Part shown: positions 11,696-47,912 of the stretch, one piece after another | Position numbering within the stretch: the stretch's first letter is position 1 | Layout: every line of letters starts with the position of its first letter | From: a bacterium | Lineage (GTDB): Bacteria; SAR324; XYD2-FULL-50-16 | NCBI GenBank assembly: GCA_024275165.1 | Contig: JAJRZQ010000012.1 | Span: forward strand, 186,001 to 250,000 | DNA length: 64,000 nucleotides | Reading direction: 5' to 3' | Translations under genes and position numbers: made by a program | The notes under the pieces: model-generated | What the model was told of the DNA's origin: nothing | Database searches by the model: none | What the model saw: only the letters and a program-made list of their open reading frames with translations

Positions 11696-12329
11696 GGAAA
11701 ACGCCGCGGGGAAAAAGCGTTTTGGAATTGCCGGGGAGGTATTCGGCGTGGGGATGGCTCCCTTGCGGAGTCTGGCCAAGGAAATCGGGAAAGACGAGGC
11801 CTTGGCTAAGCTTTTGTGGAAACAGGGCCAGAACGAAAGCAAAATTTTAGCCCTGCTGATTTGGCCTAAGGAGGCCCTAGGGGCATCTGCCATTCGCTTT
11901 TGGGAGCCCGGTCTGGATTCGTGGGATGTGGTGGATCAGGCGGCCTCCTTATTGGCGAAACAGGGCCGGGGGATGGAGCAAATGGAGCGTTTGCGCCAAC
12001 AAGAAGAAGAATACAGCAAACGCTTGGCCTTTAGCTTGATGGCCATGCTGGCTCTGCATGGGAAAAAAATACCGGATAGGGAGTTTGTTGTTTACTTAGA
12101 TTGGATCAAAGAGGCAGCGGGAGATGAAAGGAATTTTGTTAAAAAATCGGTGAATTGGGCTTTGCGGCAAATCGGCAAGCGGAGTATGAAGCTGCATCCC
12201 TTGGCGGTTCAACTGGCCCGTGAGTTGGCTCAAGGCGCTGAAAAATCGGCTCAATGGATTGGTAAAAACGCTCTGAAAGAACTTTTGGATCCTGAGCAAA
12301 TACAACGACTTCAGAAAAAAAGGTTATGA
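11643..12329 (+). CDS. DNA alkylation repair (AlkD-like) HEAT protein
   Basis: The 228-residue helical protein fits the COG4912/AlkD family of HEAT-like DNA glycosylases, which remove N3/N7-alkylated purines. Family features: an N-terminal KKRFGIAGEVFGVGMAPLRS block, then ALLIWPKEA, DSWDVVDQAA, and the C-terminal FVKKSVNWALRQIGKRS motif. The start overlaps the RF-like gene by 53 bases. A GGAGG lies about 13 bases before ATG 11643, and an alternative ATG is at 11667. The gene is followed with a four-base overlap by the response regulator. Confidence 0.82.
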   Translation: MPFILKQAMSRLGALANEENAAGKKRFGIAGEVFGVGMAPLRSLAKEIGKDEALAKLLWKQGQNESKILALLIWPKEALGASAIRFWEPGLDSWDVVDQAASLLAKQGRGMEQMERLRQQEEEYSKRLAFSLMAMLALHGKKIPDREFVVYLDWIKEAAGDERNFVKKSVNWALRQIGKRSMKLHPLAVQLARELAQGAEKSAQWIGKNALKELLDPEQIQRLQKKRL

Positions 12330-12688
12330 AAATACTGATCGCGGATGATGAAGAGGGCAGCCGCCAGATGTTGGCCGGCTTTTTAAGCAAGCGAGGGCAT
12401 GAGGTACTGCAGGCGATGAATGGGGAGGAAGCCTTGGATATGGCCCTGACAGAGCAGCCTGAAATTTTACTGCTGGACTGGGTTATGCCCCATAAAAGCG
12501 GGTTGGAGGTGTTGGAATCCTTGAAAAAACAAGGAACGAACCCCCCTAAGGTTTTCATGACCACCGGGAAGGATCAACCCCAGGAAATCACGGCAATGAA
12601 GGCTGCCGGGGCTGATGAAATATTGATTAAACCCTATGATTTAGTTGGCTTATTAGGGCATATTGAAAAAATTAAAAATAATGCTTAG
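12326..12688 (+). CDS. single-domain response regulator (CheY-like)
   Basis: A 120-residue receiver domain with no output domain. It has the acidic pocket ADDEE near the N-terminus, the phospho-acceptor Asp in LLLDWVMPHKSG (about residue 52), Thr in FMTTGKD and Lys in IKPYD. All receiver landmarks are intact, so it should be phosphorylated. It is the last gene of the lon operon (ATGA overlap) and lies 106 bases before the giant signalling protein, which may be a functional partner. Confidence 0.93.
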   Translation: MKILIADDEEGSRQMLAGFLSKRGHEVLQAMNGEEALDMALTEQPEILLLDWVMPHKSGLEVLESLKKQGTNPPKVFMTTGKDQPQEITAMKAAGADEILIKPYDLVGLLGHIEKIKNNA

Positions 12689-12794: not shown

Positions 12795-15700
12795 ATGGCA
12801 AACCGCGCTGATTATGAAGTTCACGAAGTACTCTCCTTTTCTGAAAAGGTTTGTTATTATGGTGGGGTTCGCCTTGGGGACCAGCGGCCAATCTTACTCA
12901 AACAGATTCGTGGCGACCTGGACTCCATTCCGTTGTACCCTTGGCAAAGTGAATTTGATCAAGTTCATCAAGCGCGTTTAAACTCTGTGCCCGAGGTGAT
13001 CGAAACCTTGGAAAACAGTTCGGATGGTTGGCTGATTTTGAACCGACCTCCAGGAAAGCTCCTCTCTCGTCATATTACAGAACGAAATCACCAAGTGCTT
13101 TTTGTCTTGCAGGTTGCGCTCAACCTAGCTCAGGGCTTGCGACAAATGCATGAAAAGGGGTTTTTACACCTCTGCTTAGAGCCTCAATCCATCCTGGTGC
13201 ATGACTTAAGCGCGGAAATCACCCTGCTCGACTTCTCGCAAACCAAGTACATTCTCCCGGGCCAGCAAATTTATGTTGCAGAGGGTCGCTTACAGCACCT
13301 TTTACCCTATATCGCGCCCGAGCAGACCGGGCTGCTGCATTGCTCCGTTGATCATCGAGCGGACCTGTATAGCCTGGGGGTGATTTTTTATGAAATGATT
13401 ACGGGGGCGCCACCCTTTGCCGAGAAGCGGCAAGAAGAATTGATTTTGGCGAAGCTGAAAGAACCGATTCCTTCCATGCATTCCATGCCCTTAGGCTTTC
13501 CCTCCCAGTTTTTGCGCATCGTTCATCAACTTTTGGCCCTCAGGCCGACGGATCGCTATTTAAGTGCCGCCGGTTTAGTGATGGACTTACAACACACCCT
13601 CCTAGACCTAAAAAAGGGGGATATGCCAAAATTTCCCCTTTCAATCAAAGAACCCTGTCCTCGTTTTTTTTTCCCCAGTGACCTCTATGGGAGGGATCAA
13701 GAATTGTCCGTGATTCAGCTTGCCTTGGATTGCGCGCTGGAGGGGCAGGCGCAGGTGGTGTTGATCTCGGGTGAGGCGGGAATCGGCAAAACTCGTTTGA
13801 TCCAACAGATACGCAGTCCCTTAGCTTTAAGGGGAGGGTTGTTTTTACAGTTTGAACCGGACCAGAGAACTCGTTATATTCCCTACTATGGTGTTTTACA
13901 GGCTTTTAGGTCTTTTTTGCAGCCGCTTTTAGAAGGGGATTTACCTCAGCGAGAGGAGTGGAAGGAAAGAATTTTATCTTATTTAGGCACCGACCTTGGT
14001 GTTTTATGTGAGCTTTTACCGGAATTGGGCTGTTTGCTGCGCTGGCAGAGCAAGCTTCAACTCCAGCGCGAGGCGGATCAAAAAAATCAAATCTACCATG
14101 CCCTAACCCGGCTGGTCGAGGCCTTGGCCAGTGCCGAGCGGCCTTTGGTTTTTTGCATTGATGACCTCCATTACTTAGATGAATCCTCTCTGGTTTGGAT
14201 TCAGACCCTGCTCAACCATTCCCAACAATATAACCTGCTGATTTTAGGTGCCTATCAACCCTCTTTAATCGAGACAAACCAAAGTCTTTTAACTTGCGTT
14301 GAAGGAGGGAAAAAAAGGGGGTTGAACTTGACCGAAATTGCCCTGAAAGGGCTGAACTATGAAGGGGTGAACGCTTTTATAGCGGATTTGCTGAACCAGC
14401 CGGGAGAAAAACTTTCTCGCTTGACCGAGTCTCTATTGGAGCAAACCCAGGGGAGCCCCTTTTTGCTCAAGCAGGTCTTAAAAAAGCAATATGAAGAGGG
14501 AAAGATTTATTTTTCGCGGTCCAGGGGGTGTTGGCATTGGTCGTCGGCAGAGCAATATCAAGCTGTTTTGCCTTTTGGGGAGCAGAGACTAAAGGCATTA
14601 AAGTCGGCTTCTTTAGAGGCCTATCACCTGTTGACGGAGGCGAGCACTTTAGGGCGAGCTTTCCGTATTGGGGATTTGCTGGATTTTTATCAAGGAGATA
14701 AAAAAAAGGTATGGGATGGATTGAAAATCCCTGCCCTGACCGACTGGCTTGTTTTTGAGCCGATTTTCAAGCGGAGGTCCAATGCCGCCTTGTTGGCGCA
14801 AAGGGAGGAGCGAGAGGGGTATTGTTTTCTCTCCAATGAAAATTACCTTGCCCTGCGAGAATCAATTGACCCGAGGCAAAAAGCGCAGTGGCACCTTCGT
14901 TTGGGGAAGATGCTCTTGAAGGAGGAGGTTGCCGCTTCTTTTCCGGAACCCTTTTTTACAGCGCTTTATCACCTCAATCAGGGTGAGCTTGTGGCAGATA
15001 GAGCTGAAAAGGGGAAGCTTTTGCAGGCGAACCAAAAAGCGGTTGAGGTTTGTTTACGATTGGGGGCTTACGCAGAGGGAGATTATTATTTACGGCAGGC
15101 GAGGAATTTAGGGGACGCGCTAAAGGCCTCTAAGGTGGAGGCGCTCTATTTGGAGCGACTGGAACTGGAACTGCGATATAAAACGGGGGCGCTGAATTTT
15201 GTAGAACAAAAGGCGAAGGAGTTGCTCAGCGCCAACCTCTCTAAGTCCCTGCGCTTTGACACGGTTTTGTTGCTCCTACGAGTGCTGGTTGAAAGGGCTC
15301 GCCTGCAAGAGGCGAGTCAATTGGGGGTCGAGGAATGGCCTATATGGGGGGAGGCTCGCGCTTTAAGACGAAATCGGCCCTTTTGGAAAAAAATGCGAGC
15401 CAAGCGGGTTCAAGACTTTTTGAGCATCAGCGAAGCAAAAAGCGTGGTTGCCGCCTGGGCGGCTCCCTTAGAGATCCAAGCCCCCATGCGGTTATTGGGG
15501 GTTTTGTTGCAGGTCAACCAAAGCTTAGGCGATGAAGATTTTTGCGAGGTCATTGCCTTGGAAATTCTCTCTCGAACCGTTCAAAATGGAGTCGTGGAAG
15601 AAAGCATAGAGGCCTTAATGCAACTCGGTTGTCTTTGGGTGCGGCGGGCCGCGTTGCGCTCTTGGGGGGTGAGGTTGGCCTCGGAGGCCATTCGGTTAGC

Positions 15701-17873
15701 CGAGCAAGGGGAGTTGCGCGGCCTGTTGCCCCGCTTAAAAATTTCTTTTGTGCAAGATATTCTGCAATGGAGTGGCCCCGCGGCCTTGAGTTTGCCTTAC
15801 CTAAAAGAAGCGGGGCAAACCGCTTTAGACCAAGGGGATTGCGAACAAGCGAAACAGGCCGCGGTTCTGACCTTTTATTTTTCTCATTTGATGGGGAAAC
15901 CCTTATTTGAGTCCTTAAGGTATTATGAGACGCGGCGAAAGTTGATTTCTCGCCCTACCGACCCCTCTACCCAGGAGGGATTTTACGCCTTAAAACAAAG
16001 CTTGGTGCAGTTTTTAAATCATCATCGACAAGAGCAACTCGAATACGGGGATTCCATTCGCTTAACCAGTGAAGGTGGAGCCTTGACTCACTATATCGCT
16101 CAGGGGCGGCTTTGGTATTTTTTTGGTTACCATGATTTGGCCCGACAAAGCTTCGCCCAGGCGAAAAAAAGGGTTCAGCAGCAGCAAAATCATCCTTTAT
16201 TAATTGATTTTTATTTCTTTTCCGGGCTGAATTGTCAAGCTTTGCTGCACAGTTCCACTTGGTTGAAGGGATGGGGCTTGCAAGCGGAGTTGCGCCATTG
16301 CCTCAAGCAACTGGCGAAATGGGCGACTCCCTGGCCTCAAGTCTATTTGAGGCGAAAATTGTTGTTGCTCGCCGGGCAGGCGCAATGGCGCAATCACCGA
16401 TTGGTCGCTTCTCAGTTGTATGATCGGGCCATTGAAGAGGCCTTGGGAAGTGAAAATCTAAGCGATATTGCCTTGGCTTATGAGTTGGCGGCAAAAAATT
16501 GCGTTTCGGGCAGGTTGAGGCAGCATGCCAAAGGTTTTTTGGAAAAAGCGAGGCATTATTATCGTCTCTATGGGGCGGTGGGAAAGATACGCCAATTAGA
16601 AGAAGAGGCGGAAAATTACAAGATAAGCGAGTTGGCGACCGGTTCCTTGGCCTTGCCTGCCAGCAATCAAACCGATGCCTATGCCCTGTTGTTTGCCAGT
16701 CATGCCTTGAGCCGAGAAATCTGTTATCGCCCCTTTATCGAGGTGGTTTTAAAGGTGATGGTTGAAAATTCCGGGGCTCAAAAAGGGGAGGTTTTTTCCT
16801 ATAATGAAGAGGGGCTGAGTTCCTTAGGGAAACTCACGGGGAGTTTGCTCAAAATGGAAGTGGAGCCGAAACCGCTCCACAGGCGGACCGATCTCCCCTG
16901 GGAGGTTGTCAACGACCAAGCCAAACAGGGAGAAAGCCTGGTGCGGTTGCGCCCTTCTGAAAGCATGCGCAAGCACAAACCTCTGGGGATGATGATTTTC
17001 CCCATTGTAATGGAGGGGAAGACCCGCTTTGTGGTCTATTTGGAATTTACCCAATTGCCGATTGACTGCTCTCCTGATCGAGTCAATCTGGTTAAAACCC
17101 TATCGTTACAGATTAGCGATCATTTTGCGAGGGTTTTGCGGCATGAGAAACTGCAAGAGAGCCTAAGGGATGTGAACCGAAAGTTATCTTTTCAGCACAG
17201 GCTAGCCCAGGTTGAAGACGGTTTGGTTTGGTTTCGGCCCAATGAACCTGGAGAAAAGGCAGAACATGTCAAAGCTCTTTTAGGCAAGGAAGTTTGTTTT
17301 ATGGCCACTTCCGGCCCGACGCCATCGATCTGGTTGAAGCCCAAGGGCCGTGGTTGGCTGATGTGTATGTTGACCATCCAAGGGATGGATTCTGTAGGAG
17401 AAGAATTTGCCTTGCGTCTCGGCATGCTTTTTAGTCGCCTCCCCCTAGATCAAGCGACCCCGGAAGAACTCTTCGCCTTAATCGGGGCTGAAGTGAAAAA
17501 ACAAAATTGGGAGAGAGAGGCAAAGGGGTTGTCTTTTGCCTTGCTGGAATATAATCCGGATTCAAAGCAATGCGCGATAGCCGGGGAGGGCATGGGGCTT
17601 TGGTTGGAAAAGCAAGGAAAGGTAAAAAATTTGCGTCTCGGCACAGGGTTGGGGGCAACTTCGAGCTTGTCGATGCGGTTAAAGAAAAATCAACGGCTTT
17701 TTATCGTCAATCTCAATAAGGACCCCCACGGCTGGGAGCAACGCCTGGAAAGCTGTATCTTAGAGAATTTAACAACAGGCGCAGAGCAGCTTAAATCCAG
17801 CTTGCAACAGGCTGATCAAGAGGGGGCCTTGCCTGTGGGCATGGCTTTGGTGGGGATTTGTCCCTCTTCATGA
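12795..17873 (+). CDS. giant pseudokinase-STAND ATPase-GAF-pseudophosphatase protein
   Basis: A 1692-residue cytosolic signalling protein. Residues about 10-270 have the protein kinase fold (beta-3 Lys36; LYSLGVIFYEMITGAPPF). The catalytic loop reads HLCLEPQSI (125-133): the catalytic Asp is Cys127 and the metal Asn is Ser132, and DFG is DFS (146-148). Residues about 295-640 are an AAA/STAND ATPase with Walker A SGEAGIGKTR and Walker B FCIDDLH. Residues about 650-1270 form helical TPR-like repeats. A GAF domain (about 1285-1440), a coiled coil and a SpoIIE/PP2C-like domain (about 1490-1692) follow. The last keeps the AGEGMGLWL fold motif but lacks the GDVSGHG and TDG metal sites. It resembles the multidomain STAND kinases of myxobacteria and cyanobacteria, but both catalytic ends look dead. 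The 3' end overlaps the convergent MFS gene by 58 bases. Confidence 0.87.
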   Translation: MANRADYEVHEVLSFSEKVCYYGGVRLGDQRPILLKQIRGDLDSIPLYPWQSEFDQVHQARLNSVPEVIETLENSSDGWLILNRPPGKLLSRHITERNHQVLFVLQVALNLAQGLRQMHEKGFLHLCLEPQSILVHDLSAEITLLDFSQTKYILPGQQIYVAEGRLQHLLPYIAPEQTGLLHCSVDHRADLYSLGVIFYEMITGAPPFAEKRQEELILAKLKEPIPSMHSMPLGFPSQFLRIVHQLLALRPTDRYLSAAGLVMDLQHTLLDLKKGDMPKFPLSIKEPCPRFFFPSDLYGRDQELSVIQLALDCALEGQAQVVLISGEAGIGKTRLIQQIRSPLALRGGLFLQFEPDQRTRYIPYYGVLQAFRSFLQPLLEGDLPQREEWKERILSYLGTDLGVLCELLPELGCLLRWQSKLQLQREADQKNQIYHALTRLVEALASAERPLVFCIDDLHYLDESSLVWIQTLLNHSQQYNLLILGAYQPSLIETNQSLLTCVEGGKKRGLNLTEIALKGLNYEGVNAFIADLLNQPGEKLSRLTESLLEQTQGSPFLLKQVLKKQYEEGKIYFSRSRGCWHWSSAEQYQAVLPFGEQRLKALKSASLEAYHLLTEASTLGRAFRIGDLLDFYQGDKKKVWDGLKIPALTDWLVFEPIFKRRSNAALLAQREEREGYCFLSNENYLALRESIDPRQKAQWHLRLGKMLLKEEVAASFPEPFFTALYHLNQGELVADRAEKGKLLQANQKAVEVCLRLGAYAEGDYYLRQARNLGDALKASKVEALYLERLELELRYKTGALNFVEQKAKELLSANLSKSLRFDTVLLLLRVLVERARLQEASQLGVEEWPIWGEARALRRNRPFWKKMRAKRVQDFLSISEAKSVVAAWAAPLEIQAPMRLLGVLLQVNQSLGDEDFCEVIALEILSRTVQNGVVEESIEALMQLGCLWVRRAALRSWGVRLASEAIRLAEQGELRGLLPRLKISFVQDILQWSGPAALSLPYLKEAGQTALDQGDCEQAKQAAVLTFYFSHLMGKPLFESLRYYETRRKLISRPTDPSTQEGFYALKQSLVQFLNHHRQEQLEYGDSIRLTSEGGALTHYIAQGRLWYFFGYHDLARQSFAQAKKRVQQQQNHPLLIDFYFFSGLNCQALLHSSTWLKGWGLQAELRHCLKQLAKWATPWPQVYLRRKLLLLAGQAQWRNHRLVASQLYDRAIEEALGSENLSDIALAYELAAKNCVSGRLRQHAKGFLEKARHYYRLYGAVGKIRQLEEEAENYKISELATGSLALPASNQTDAYALLFASHALSREICYRPFIEVVLKVMVENSGAQKGEVFSYNEEGLSSLGKLTGSLLKMEVEPKPLHRRTDLPWEVVNDQAKQGESLVRLRPSESMRKHKPLGMMIFPIVMEGKTRFVVYLEFTQLPIDCSPDRVNLVKTLSLQISDHFARVLRHEKLQESLRDVNRKLSFQHRLAQVEDGLVWFRPNEPGEKAEHVKALLGKEVCFMATSGPTPSIWLKPKGRGWLMCMLTIQGMDSVGEEFALRLGMLFSRLPLDQATPEELFALIGAEVKKQNWEREAKGLSFALLEYNPDSKQCAIAGEGMGLWLEKQGKVKNLRLGTGLGATSSLSMRLKKNQRLFIVNLNKDPHGWEQRLESCILENLTTGAEQLKSSLQQADQEGALPVGMALVGICPSS

Positions 17874-20277: not shown

Positions 20278-22908
20278 CTAGGAAGAAAAACCCTGGAACT
20301 CGTTTGGTTTTTTTAGATTGGCTAAGATCATTTTTCCTTGGGTGGGGCCGTAGAGAATTTTGCGGTTGCCTTGAGCCCAGCGGAAATAAAAAGGGTAGGG
20401 GGCTTCTTGCTCGCTTTGGTGAAAGAGGGGAACGGTGGTTTGATGCACCAAGTCCACTAAGAGCAGCAATCTGGATTGAAGAAAGATCAAGGCTCGGCTC
20501 CCGTCTGGGTGGGGGAGGTAGCTGTGTACCTTGGAAAAACTTTGCCCCTGGGGCCCCTCAACGCTACAGCGTTGAGCCAAGGCGAGATCGCGTTTTTTGA
20601 TCCGGCTGATCAAGGCTAAGACCTCTTGCTCTCGCTCTCGTTTCGGGATGCTTCTGCTTTCGGGGAGGGTGTGCAGGGGGGTGAAAAAGTCTTCCCCCAC
20701 AATGAGGCCCAATTCGATTCCTCGCTGTAAGGTGAGGTCGGGAGTGAGGTATTCCCGTTCTTCAATTGGGTCGTGGCGGTCTCTTTGGTGGTTGGGGTTG
20801 CGTAGTTCTTGTAAGATCGCCACCTCGGCTTCGATGGGGTTGAGGGTTAATTCCAGCGCCTCGGGGTGGCTGAGGGAAAAAAGCTTTAAGTTTTCGGGGA
20901 AAAGAGCCAGCCATTTCTTAAAGAGGTTGAAAATCGTTCCATTGGCCCTACCTTTGGCTAGGTTTAAGGTTTCGCCCAAATCCAGCCCGTTGCTGAGCAG
21001 GCTTTGATAATAGGATTTATGGTTGTCTTTGAGTTTGCGCAAAATCCAATGGAGGAGGTAATCGGTCAGCAACAGGTTGTCTTCCCCAATGGCGGTTTTT
21101 AAAGCTTGGGTTAGAGAAAAACCCTTTCCCGCTAAGAGTTTTATTAAGTCGAGGTTGTTTTCCAACATGGCGAGACTCAGCAGGCTATCGCCATAGAGGG
21201 TTTGCCAATAAAGCAGATCGGGTTGCTTGTCTAAGAGCAGGCTTAAGAGGTCTAAGCGTTGGTGGGCGATGAAGAAGACCGCGGGGGATTGCTCGGCTAA
21301 GGTGTAGAGCAGCCAGTTCGATTGCAGTTCTTCAGGGTGGTAGAAGCCGTCTTTAAAGCGAAAGAAATGGTTGGATTTATTTAAGATTTCCTTAAAGGGT
21401 TCTAGGGTTTCAAACTGGAGGCAAAGAGGGATAAGCTTAGGCCAGGGAAGGATGACGAACTCGTTTAAACGGCCTAATTCGATGAGGGTTTTTTTGATTA
21501 ACTCGGGGTAACCGTGGTTTTCTAAAGCGAGGAGAATCAGATGATTGAGGTCGATCACCAGTTTTTCAGCCAAAGTAAATTGTTCTTTGCGGTTTTTAAG
21601 CTGCAAGTGTTGCCCTTGGCGGCTTAAATCCTCAAAACATTCCAAGGCCCAGATTACCGTTTCCACGGTACCAAAGAAGGAGTCCCCCTCATTTTGGTAA
21701 ACCCGCTCCAAGGCCCTCGTAAAGGGGATATCTAAAGCGGCGTAATGTTGCGCCAAAGGGCTGCCTGGCACTAAGAGTTTTTCTCTGCATTCGCTTAAAA
21801 AAGAGCGCAGGACGCTCATATCTAAGTCAGCTTGAAAATTGGCATCGTCGAGCAGGTTATCCCCTCCGCAAAACCCTTGGTAAAAGGCATGGGAGAGGCT
21901 TGCCCCTAGTTCGAGCAGCAGGTTGGCCGCCGGATCGAGTTTGCGCGCTATGGCGATAAAAAGGGGCTGGGAGGGGTCGTTTTGACTGTTCAGGGGGAAG
22001 CCCAATCGGGCTAAGGCCCGGATATATTGCAAATCGTTGCGGCATAGGGGGAAGATATAAGGGCTCTCAAAATCGAGGGGGAGGCGGGGTTTTTGGAAGG
22101 AGTAAACCGCTTCTAAGAGTTGAGGCTCTCCCCGGAGGCCTAAGGCTTGAATGATTTCTTCGTCCTCATTGATATTGAAGGGGCAATGATGGCGCAGCAG
22201 GTATTCGATGAGTTTTCGGTCCCCCTGGCCTAAAATAGCGGTGGATAAGGGGTTGGCCGATTTTAAGCGGCGAAATTCAGGCAAGGTATAACCTAAGCCG
22301 ATGGGGCCGCTGATCTCTTGTAGGTTTTGCCCGTATTGGGTGCTTAGGTATTTGTCGTAGTCCTCCCAAAGAGATTGGGTTAAGGGGAGGTCATTCAAGG
22401 CGGTGGCGCTGTATAATAAGGAAAGCAGTTCTTGCCCATTTAACGAGCTTTGCTCCTGTAGCTTGTGTAAGATAAAGTTTTTATCCAACAAGGTGGTTTG
22501 GTATTGTTGCTCCGGGTTCTGCGCCACCATTTGCCAAGCCATTTCTTGGTAGGCCCGCTCAAGGTAGGGGGATAAAAAAAGGGAGAGCTGGGTTTGGGTC
22601 GTGGGATATAAAAAGCGCAACAAAAGCTGGTTTTGAAAATCCTTGTTTCGCAGGGGGCCAAAGATTCCAGAAAGATAGATTTCAGTGAGTTGCGCTTCTT
22701 CAGGAGGGAGAAAATAGGGGAGGCTGTTTAAGGGGTTGAGTTTGAGGTCATCGGGGAAGAATCGTTTCGCCACCCTTTGGGCTAAAAAATCTAAAGCTTG
22801 TTGCAGGTTCGGGTCGAGTTCCAAAGGAATCTGGTTGACCAGCCATTGGGGCATGGTTTGAAACCCCCGATGCAAATTGATAAAATAAATTGCCTCTTCC
22901 AGATGCAT
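20278..22908 (-). CDS. large ankyrin-like repeat protein, ended early by TAG
   Basis: The 876-residue soluble protein has degenerate ankyrin-type helical pairs, for example GDRKLIEYLLRHHCPFNINE (about residue 230), AANLLLELGASL, and GDSLLSLAMLENNLDLIKLL (about residue 580). Residues about 780-876 begin a beta-propeller-like region (SRALIFLQSRLLLLVDLVHQ) that continues in the same frame after the TAG at 20278-20280. No signal peptide. The ATG at 22908 has an excellent AGGAGGT site. The family function is unknown; ankyrin proteins bind other proteins. It is divergent from the V-ATPase operon and in one transcription unit with the MFS gene. A nonsense mutation or a sequence error is likely. Confidence 0.75.
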   Translation of the reverse strand: MHLEEAIYFINLHRGFQTMPQWLVNQIPLELDPNLQQALDFLAQRVAKRFFPDDLKLNPLNSLPYFLPPEEAQLTEIYLSGIFGPLRNKDFQNQLLLRFLYPTTQTQLSLFLSPYLERAYQEMAWQMVAQNPEQQYQTTLLDKNFILHKLQEQSSLNGQELLSLLYSATALNDLPLTQSLWEDYDKYLSTQYGQNLQEISGPIGLGYTLPEFRRLKSANPLSTAILGQGDRKLIEYLLRHHCPFNINEDEEIIQALGLRGEPQLLEAVYSFQKPRLPLDFESPYIFPLCRNDLQYIRALARLGFPLNSQNDPSQPLFIAIARKLDPAANLLLELGASLSHAFYQGFCGGDNLLDDANFQADLDMSVLRSFLSECREKLLVPGSPLAQHYAALDIPFTRALERVYQNEGDSFFGTVETVIWALECFEDLSRQGQHLQLKNRKEQFTLAEKLVIDLNHLILLALENHGYPELIKKTLIELGRLNEFVILPWPKLIPLCLQFETLEPFKEILNKSNHFFRFKDGFYHPEELQSNWLLYTLAEQSPAVFFIAHQRLDLLSLLLDKQPDLLYWQTLYGDSLLSLAMLENNLDLIKLLAGKGFSLTQALKTAIGEDNLLLTDYLLHWILRKLKDNHKSYYQSLLSNGLDLGETLNLAKGRANGTIFNLFKKWLALFPENLKLFSLSHPEALELTLNPIEAEVAILQELRNPNHQRDRHDPIEEREYLTPDLTLQRGIELGLIVGEDFFTPLHTLPESRSIPKREREQEVLALISRIKKRDLALAQRCSVEGPQGQSFSKVHSYLPHPDGSRALIFLQSRLLLLVDLVHQTTVPLFHQSEQEAPYPFYFRWAQGNRKILYGPTQGKMILANLKKPNEFQGFSS

Positions 22909-46199: not shown

Positions 46200-47912
46200 A
46201 TGCGGCAAAATATAATCGTCAAGGCGGGGCAATGTTCCCACGCCGGGATCAAACCCTCCAATCAGGATTGCTGCGGGATTCGCATTCCTGAGGGTTCGGT
46301 TCTAGAATACAAAGGCATTGTCGCCGTGGTGGCCGATGGAGTGGGGAGTTCCGCCGCCGGGCGCGAAGCGAGCGAGCATTGCGTGAAAAGCTTTATCAGT
46401 GATTATTATAGTTCACCGGATTCCTGGGCGGCGCGCCGTTCCGGGGAAACAGTCACCAAGGCGCTCAATTCCTGGCTTTATAATCAAGGGCAAAAGCTTT
46501 ATGAAGAAGAATTATCTTTGGCTTCGACCTTGAGCGCTCTAGTATTAAAATCCACGACCGCCTATTTGTTTCATGTGGGGGATACTCGGATTCAATTGAT
46601 TCGCCAAGGGGTTTTAAAACCTCTGACCCGAGATCATCATATTATCGCAGGTCCGAAAAAGCGGTATTTGGCCCGGGCCATGGGGGCCGATAGCCAAGTC
46701 AATGTAGATTATTATCAGTTGGACTTACAGCCGCTGGATATCTTTATTCTCACCACCGACGGGGTGCATGAATCCTTAAGCCCCTTAGAACTCAAGGAAT
46801 TGGCTTTGGATGAGGGGAACAACCTCGAAGAACGGGCACGCCGCATTGTCGCCCAAGCGGTGGAACGGGGGTCGCAGGACAATACCACCTGCCAGATTTT
46901 GCAGATTGAAAGTTTACCCAATGAGCAGGATGAGGCGTTTTATGAAAAACTCACCGCCTTGCCCTTCCCCCCCCCGCTCAAGGCCGGCGACCGCTTTGAA
47001 GGGTATGAGATTATTAAGGAGCTTCATGCCAGTTCCAAGGTTCAGGTTTATTTGGCTCAAGACTTAGAACAAAAAAAAAAGGTGGTGATCAAAACCCCTT
47101 CCATCAACTATGAGGACGACTTGGCCTATATTCAGCGTTTTACCCATGAGGAATGGGTGGGCAAGGCCCTATCCAGCCCTCGAGTGTTGAAGGTGCTGGC
47201 ACCCTCAAAGCGTAAAAATTTTCTCTATTATGTAACGGATTATGTTGAAGGGGAAACGCTGGCCCAGTGGATTTTAGACCACCCCCTCCCCCCCCTGCAA
47301 AGGGTGCGCGAGTTTACTGCCCAGATTATTGAGGGGTTGCGCGCCTTTCAACGCAGAGAGATGGTTCACCAAGATTTAAAGCCTGAAAATATTTTGCTCG
47401 ATGCCCAAGGGCAGATCAAGCTGATTGATTTTGGTTGCGTCTTTGTGGCGGGGTTGCAAGAACTCTATTCTCCGGTGGAAGACAGCCGTATTCAAGGTAC
47501 GGAGGATTACATCGCCCCGGAGGTGCAAGAGGGCTTTGCCCCCACCTATCAAGCTGATTTGTATGCTTTAGGGGTGACGGTTTATGAAATGTTGACGGGG
47601 AAAATGCCCTATCCCCCCAAAGGCGACCTGCGTTTACCGGGAAAGCGGGAATACCGCCCAGCCCGTTTGAGCAACCCTTTGGTGCCCATTTGGATGGATG
47701 AGACGATTAAAAAAGCGGTTTGCCCTCAACCTCAATATCGCTATGAGAGTTTTTCTGAGTTTTTTTTCGACCTGAATAATCCCAACCCCGCTTTTTTTAA
47801 GCATCAGGCTCCCTTGATGGAGCGAGACCCCCTAACCTTTTGGAAGGGCTTTGCCCTTTTGCTTTTTTTGCTCAATGTGCTCTGGATTTTTCTTTTGGCC
47901 CAGGGGAAATAG
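46200..47912 (+). CDS. PP2C phosphatase-Ser/Thr kinase fusion with C-terminal anchor
   Basis: A 570-residue bifunctional regulator. Residues 1-240 are a PP2C phosphatase (NQDCCGIRI, VVADGVGSSAAGREASE, HVGDTRIQLI, LTTDGVHESL, DNTTCQIL, with metal Asp residues present). Residues about 260-530 are a Hanks-type kinase with Lys in KKKVVIKTPS, catalytic HQDLKPENIL (Asp about 392) and DFG, so both activities look intact. A single membrane helix (FALLLFLLNVLWIFLLAQ) ends the protein. Such fusions are known beside nirBD/nasA and nitrate transporters (for example in Pseudomonas), so it probably tunes nitrate assimilation by reversible phosphorylation; the substrate is unknown. I chose ATG 46200 over the TTG just before it. 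Confidence 0.92.
   Translation: MRQNIIVKAGQCSHAGIKPSNQDCCGIRIPEGSVLEYKGIVAVVADGVGSSAAGREASEHCVKSFISDYYSSPDSWAARRSGETVTKALNSWLYNQGQKLYEEELSLASTLSALVLKSTTAYLFHVGDTRIQLIRQGVLKPLTRDHHIIAGPKKRYLARAMGADSQVNVDYYQLDLQPLDIFILTTDGVHESLSPLELKELALDEGNNLEERARRIVAQAVERGSQDNTTCQILQIESLPNEQDEAFYEKLTALPFPPPLKAGDRFEGYEIIKELHASSKVQVYLAQDLEQKKKVVIKTPSINYEDDLAYIQRFTHEEWVGKALSSPRVLKVLAPSKRKNFLYYVTDYVEGETLAQWILDHPLPPLQRVREFTAQIIEGLRAFQRREMVHQDLKPENILLDAQGQIKLIDFGCVFVAGLQELYSPVEDSRIQGTEDYIAPEVQEGFAPTYQADLYALGVTVYEMLTGKMPYPPKGDLRLPGKREYRPARLSNPLVPIWMDETIKKAVCPQPQYRYESFSEFFFDLNNPNPAFFKHQAPLMERDPLTFWKGFALLLFLLNVLWIFLLAQGK

Follow-up and report, generated by a model that had tools for sequence, protein, structure and literature searches.

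Introduction

In the published passages cited here, approximately 40% of the members of the CP1 family of kinase-like proteins are pseudokinases, and their function is described as unknown (O'Boyle et al., 2025; PMC12599244). All are linked, in the same passages, to a COG3899 ATPase, often carry FhlA/GAF parts and have no membrane span (PMC12599244). The related cyanobacterial family III (cbSTKIII) goes by the name of "KD" kinases in the cited part of an older survey (PMC2176072). On the phosphatase side, excerpts on Escherichia coli RssB describe a receiver joined to a PP2C-fold effector without active-site residues, which binds sigma-S and ClpX (PMC7226468; PMC5468089), and one of them names TAB1 a pseudo-PP2C (PMC5468089). 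Here we describe an open reading frame (ORF) from a SAR324 bacterium (GCA_024275165.1) whose product appears to have lost the active sites of both a kinase and a PP2C phosphatase within one chain. It lies in a window of 64,000 nucleotides (contig JAJRZQ010000012.1), to which coordinates refer unless a locus or contig handle is given.

Architecture of the ORF protein

The ORF is uninterrupted and its predicted parts follow one another in this order:

12795..17873, + strand, whole ORF (1692 aa): pseudokinase, STAND ATPase, TPR-like region, degenerate GAF, pseudo-PP2C
12795..13604, + strand, kinase-like domain, residues 1-270 (Pfam Pkinase 51-256, 1.1e-18; best PDB sequence match PknB)
13683..14243, + strand, AAA_16/STAND NTPase, residues 297-483 (Pfam AAA_16, 1.7e-28)
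14955..16694, + strand, residues 721-1300, a helical, TPR-like stretch that runs collinear with the family
16695..17174, + strand, GAF-equivalent region, residues 1301-1460, where erosion is strongest (20 of 57 conserved columns retained)
17283..17864, + strand, SpoIIE/PP2C-like domain, residues 1497-1690, without any metal-Asp motif (alignment, profile and fold comparison)

The chain is collinear with kinase-STAND-TPR-GAF proteins of the same class and of many named bacteria, at 20-30% identity. Beyond the kinase and AAA_16 domains, the rest was recognized through these relatives alone; residues 721-1300 are presumably TPR-like, and no Pfam match was found in the 697 aa tested from 14700-16790. 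The AAA_16 match directly follows the kinase, as in the family, which bears on the linked COG3899 ATPase of CP1 proteins. Further, a simple scan detected no membrane span (highest 19-residue Kyte-Doolittle mean, 1.41). The ORF protein belongs to a kinase-STAND-GAF family that, judged from the published description, matches the CP1 (pseudo)kinases. At its 3' end the ORF overlaps by 58 bases (17816-17873) the end of a convergent MFS gene, whose product is a relative of the transporter portion found in acyl-ACP phospholipid acyltransferases. Farther on, 20278-22908 (- strand) encodes a protein of 876 aa in which Pfam recognizes weak ankyrin repeats and nothing else.

A predicted pseudokinase at the amino terminus

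We aligned the first 720 residues of the ORF protein with 109 homologues (110 rows), of which 29 came from related genomes and 80 were the best of 571 confirmed in genome contigs. Since one of the two conserved patterns used to find the 80 lies in the kinase, this sampling is not neutral. The alignment placed the catalytic positions as follows:

12900..12902, + strand, beta-3 Lys36, kept (110-row alignment)
13167..13190, + strand, catalytic loop HLCLEPQS, residues 125-132, with Asp replaced by Cys127 and Asn by Ser132 (family consensus HKD(I/L)xPxN)
13230..13238, + strand, DFS, residues 146-148, with D146 kept and Ser normal for the family (110-row alignment)

Column 127 holds Asp in 93 rows, Asn in 13, and Cys, Gln, Tyr and a gap in one each, the sole Cys being that of the ORF protein. 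At column 132, where the ORF protein has Ser, 101 of the 110 rows have Asn. The homologues thus bear out an earlier note on this DNA, which had described a kinase fold that keeps Lys36 and D146 but carries Cys127 at the site of the catalytic Asp and Ser132 at that of the metal Asn. The same note had counted DFS in place of DFG among the defects; it is not one, because Ser is the commonest residue at position 148 in the family (Ser in 47 rows, Gly in 44). Compared with an active Hanks-type Ser/Thr kinase, the ORF protein retains the beta-3 Lys and the DFG Asp and lacks the catalytic-loop Asp (HRD); like CP1 pseudokinases, it combines a kinase fold with at least one degraded catalytic motif. With Cys127 and Ser132 in place of the conserved Asp and Asn, the kinase part is therefore, by sequence, a pseudokinase of a recurring and already known kind.

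Among the 108 homologues that have both columns 127 and 146, 77 keep the Lys, the catalytic Asp and the DFG Asp. The catalytic Asp is absent in 15 of them, so a dead kinase is not special in this family; the DFG Asp is absent in 21, both are absent in seven, and D127 and N132 are jointly lost in five. The residues that are invariant across the kinase in a 17-sequence alignment (K36, H119, P130, P175, E176, D190 and R254) are all kept in the ORF protein, as are 28 of 37 near-invariant kinase columns. We rejected an assignment as an anti-phage defence kinase: the PD-T4-6 and MADS6 matches (PADLOC, NCBIfam) are confined to the kinase domain rather than spanning the whole length, and the MADS6 match scores 73.6 bits versus a cut-off of 460.

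A PP2C-like tail without metal-binding residues

The Pfam SpoIIE model matched the tail under its cut-off (E 0.098-0.2), which is insufficient as proof of a PP2C domain. A motif search with inspection found that a SpoIIE domain ends nine of the 98 long relatives, at the same place in the chain as the tail. The metal-binding Asp residues are invariant across these nine, all of which also have an intact kinase (K36, D127, N132 and D146). When aligned with six of them (alignment A4), the tail has a gap at GGDYY, Thr1527 in place of the GD Asp, another gap at TDG, and E1676/G1677 at the final DD. None of the metal Asp positions of SpoIIE/PP2C phosphatases (GGD, GDxxGHG, TDG and DD) is therefore preserved.

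Profile comparison with hhalign gave the tail a probability of 17-34%. In a first control that included the coiled-coil linker, none of 200 shuffles scored as high as the tail, but 63 of 77 non-SpoIIE family tails did; 60 of the 63 started in the linker and three past it. Once the linker had been removed, at a cut chosen after the first control had failed, the tail scored 31.0 versus 19.9 for the best of the 77 family tails and 20.5 for the best of 100 shuffles, so that none of either set (0/77 and 0/100) reached it. A structural model predicted from the single sequence had low confidence (pLDDT 45.2) and showed the PP2C order of elements. Its first 44 PDB matches were PP2C folds, headed by SiaA, SpoIIE, Pseudomonas aeruginosa RssB and RsbX; SidD, whose fold is PP2C-like, is also among these matches. 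A second model, built on an alignment of the six relatives, reached a pLDDT of 65.9 and matched SiaA-PP2C with a Z of 18.0 (3.6 Å over 221 residues), E. coli RssB and TAB1 being among the other matches; this model is not independent of the PP2C assignment, because SpoIIE sequences formed its alignment. On the predicted structures and the profile comparison, the tail is predicted to have a PP2C fold. The reading of the carboxy terminus as a PP2C-like domain devoid of metal Asp, also made from the sequence earlier, was borne out by alignment, controlled profile comparison and fold comparison, and its identification as a pseudo-PP2C is well supported.

Erosion across the chain

The central ATPase combines preserved nucleotide-binding loops with replacements at positions that the family conserves:

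13770..13793, + strand, Walker A GEAGIGKT, residues 326-333, kept (family alignment)
14088..14090, + strand, Gln432, where 98 of 98 relatives have Arg (family alignment)
14148..14171, + strand, Walker B VFCIDDLH, residues 452-459, Asp456 kept (family alignment)
14256..14258, + strand, Gln488, replacing the Arg of the AYR motif (Arg in 93 of 98; family alignment)
14832..14834, + strand, Ser680, replacing the His of the family HDR motif (His in 98 of 98; family alignment)

The Walker residues K332, T333 and D456 are all retained in the STAND part. Asn554, like R432 and H680 invariant in the 98 long relatives, is also replaced, in this case by Ser. Judging by position, R488 would be the sensor-1 Arg, and H680 would correspond to the MHD histidine of plant NLRs. 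The loss of R432, N554 and H680 may have left the STAND part incapable of switching.

For each domain, we measured erosion as the fraction kept of the columns that reach 70% conservation or more among relatives. The full-length analyses exclude 11 homologues whose open frames do not exceed 1400 aa, hence 98 relatives. The ORF protein keeps 0.53 in the kinase, 0.46 in the STAND part, 0.53 in the arm, 0.54 in the TPR-like region and 0.35 in the GAF part; the other 98 relatives average 0.83-0.87 across domains. The ATPase region is, overall, as eroded as the kinase. The earlier note had read the protein as kinase and phosphatase ends turned sensors or scaffolds around an intact STAND nucleotide switch. 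Its GEAGIGKT and CIDDLH motifs are indeed present and its two non-catalytic ends are supported by the loss of D127 and N132 in the kinase and of the metal Asps in the tail. The intactness of the core is not supported, given the four replaced STAND residues: the nucleotide-binding loops remain, but family-invariant residues are gone and the erosion is chain-wide. The picture is one of a chain that has drifted throughout, rather than of two dead ends around a preserved core.

Genomic setting

The genome (2.69 Mb, 47 contigs) encodes three Pfam kinases: the ORF protein, a PP2C-kinase fusion and the paralogue L002. It also has four SpoIIE domains over the cut-off, two of them fused to receivers, seven STAS domains over the cut-off and HATPase_c_2 proteins, so the organism probably uses partner switching. 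CP1-like proteins in relatives are placed beside partner-switching parts (STAS genes), and no STAS gene adjoins the ORF. Among 51 further genomes of its class (the phylum pool being the same 52 genomes), we found no orthologue of the ORF. With the GAF part added to the query, weak matches appeared in two of the 51, confined to that part, and P0001 alone had no match in the genome contigs. FastTree placed L027 as sister to the ORF protein (support 0.885), a grouping we do not trust because both are long branches.

The paralogue L002 (1765-6288) keeps HQD and has lost the DFG Asp. It belongs to a supported clade of eight whose members end after the GAF part. Together with L016, which is cut by its contig and lies outside the tree, these make nine L002-type loci, five of which are followed by a STAS gene (L002, L009, L010, L014 and L015). 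This pseudokinase-STAS pair is conserved and merits separate study. In this family-wide group of CP1-like proteins (L002, L009, L010, L013-L016, L025 and L026) the DFG Asp is replaced by Gly or Ser and the catalytic Asp is kept.

Several other proteins combine related domains. At approximately 46200-47909 of the window (L003 697-2406) is the PP2C_2-kinase fusion, with a carboxy-terminal hydrophobic segment and a canonical HQDLKPEN; by motif, it is the only one of the three kinases of the genome that looks fully active. Locus L036 (G000 C9:35654-36592) encodes a receiver-SpoIIE-HATPase_c_2 fusion, which brings phosphatase and anti-sigma-kinase type domains together in one chain. The CP1-like protein L045 of Sorangium cellulosum has a carboxy-terminal tail that is STAS-like by eye.

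Proposed function and alternatives

We tentatively favor, at somewhat less than even probability, a lineage-specific, non-catalytic CP1-type adaptor as the product of the ORF. Because the catalytic residues of both ends appear to be lost, the protein probably works via partner binding rather than by adding or removing phosphate. The pseudokinase may have kept ATP binding, via K36 and D146, and the STAND part, in which both Walker motifs remain, may have kept nucleotide binding. The TPR-like and GAF-equivalent parts would sense signals that alter the shape of the protein. As in E. coli RssB, the pseudo-PP2C tail would offer a protein-docking surface and would sequester or present a partner rather than dephosphorylate it, with anti-anti-sigma proteins of the STAS type and receiver domains as the likeliest candidates. 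The partner-switching repertoire of the genome fits this reading, as do the STAS genes that follow L002 and four of the other eight L002-type loci; that no STAS gene adjoins the ORF counts against it.

The main rival, which we consider unlikely though a real prospect, is that the ORF is an eroding paralogue under relaxed selection, heading to loss, with no present function that needs the tail or the kinase. Chain-wide erosion that extends beyond the active sites fits relaxed selection as well. At the 70% threshold, no relative retains as few conserved columns as the ORF protein in the STAND, arm, TPR-like or GAF parts, and in the kinase one of the 98 retains fewer; its branch is the longest of the 99 sequences (2.16 versus 1.40 for the next); and it lacks an orthologue among the 51 genomes. 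Against decay stand the near-invariant kinase columns still kept, a codon usage (0.669) near that of the neighbours (0.670-0.738, the neighbours being themselves the reference) and a frame without a stop. That 1692 codons stay open despite the longest branch, with neighbour-like codon usage, favours a retained protein over a decaying gene. Retention in the kinase of the residues invariant in the 17-sequence alignment likewise favours a maintained protein, as far as sequence can indicate.

It is doubtful, on present evidence, that the ORF protein forms half of a split RssB-like module in which the neighbouring regulator acts in trans on the tail and, depending on its own phosphorylation, determines what the tail binds:

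12326..12688, + strand, single-domain response regulator just upstream of the ORF (Pfam Response_reg, 1.8e-22)

By eye, this protein has D51, T79 or T80, and K102. It lies on the same strand as the ORF, 106 bases away, and a scan found no terminator-like site between the two, the sole one being inside the regulator gene. Consistent with such a module, receivers are fused to SpoIIE domains twice in this genome, and in E. coli RssB, according to the cited excerpt, a receiver is joined to a PP2C-fold effector devoid of active-site residues (PMC7226468). However, response regulators are common, and this one may be part of the operon of the upstream DNA_alkylation gene, whose end its start overlaps. 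What suggests this CheY-like protein as the target of the ORF protein, a possibility raised in the earlier note, is adjacency.

Rather improbable is a more elaborate scheme, a double pseudoenzyme in which a de-tuned STAND part would join the dead kinase to the dead PP2C in a single adaptor, an RssB-like switch on a CP1 scaffold; its two ends would recognize and retain phospho-signalling partners, namely a STAS protein and, in trans, a receiver. There is also a small chance that the kinase-like domain carries out some other ATP-dependent reaction, in the manner of SelO or SidJ, or retains weak kinase activity despite Cys127. K36 and D146 are kept, and other bacterial pseudokinases have gained new chemistry, according to the cited passages of PMC12599244; against this, N132 is lost too and we identified no replacement base or flipped-ATP motif. 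Very improbable is that the tail is unrelated to PP2C and matched by chance topology, as its sub-threshold Pfam value, modest hhalign probability and low single-sequence pLDDT might suggest, because no linker-free control reached its score, the first 44 matches of the alignment-free model were PP2C folds and it sits where nine relatives carry SpoIIE.

If the product of the ORF is maintained, the adaptor reading would imply that the CP1 architecture can work by binding alone. If erosion is all there is, the locus is a useful reminder that motifs by themselves do not justify naming such chains "switches".

Comparison with known systems

The ORF protein and CP1 proteins, as the latter are described in the cited passages, share a kinase domain, a predicted ATPase, GAF/FhlA-type parts and the lack of a membrane span (PMC12599244). 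Leptospira Q8F1M0, a CP1 protein given there, reads VLIK, Hkslcpgn and DFS where the ORF protein reads ILLK, HLCLEPQS and DFS (PMC12599244). Those passages mention no pseudo-PP2C tail, whereas the ORF protein has one and has also lost Asn132 (PMC12599244). Nine CP1-like relatives with a SpoIIE tail (L004, L006, L024, L066, L069, L075, L094, L110 and L119) have the same order of parts, yet they keep K36, D127, N132, D146 and the metal Asps, and the ORF protein lacks D127, N132 and the metal Asps. The HstK-type dual kinases of cyanobacteria resemble it at the front end, with a "KD" kinase and then GAF, but end, in the cited description, in histidine kinases rather than in a dead PP2C (PMC2176072).

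In the open PMC library, our literature search found no description of a dead kinase and a dead PP2C combined in a single protein. By sequence, the new point is thus the apparent loss of both active sites in one chain; the pseudokinase part was already known. TAB1 is, like the tail, a pseudo-PP2C and one of its fold matches, but it is eukaryotic and unrelated in architecture. The closest functional precedent for the tail, by analogy, is E. coli RssB, whose PP2C-fold effector likewise lacks active-site residues and which acts, in the cited excerpts, as an adaptor (PMC7226468; PMC5468089). Unlike the ORF protein, RssB has its receiver fused in cis, has no kinase or STAND part and delivers sigma-S to ClpXP. 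Should the adaptor reading be true, the ORF protein could join RssB as a bacterial case of a PP2C fold turned to adaptor use.
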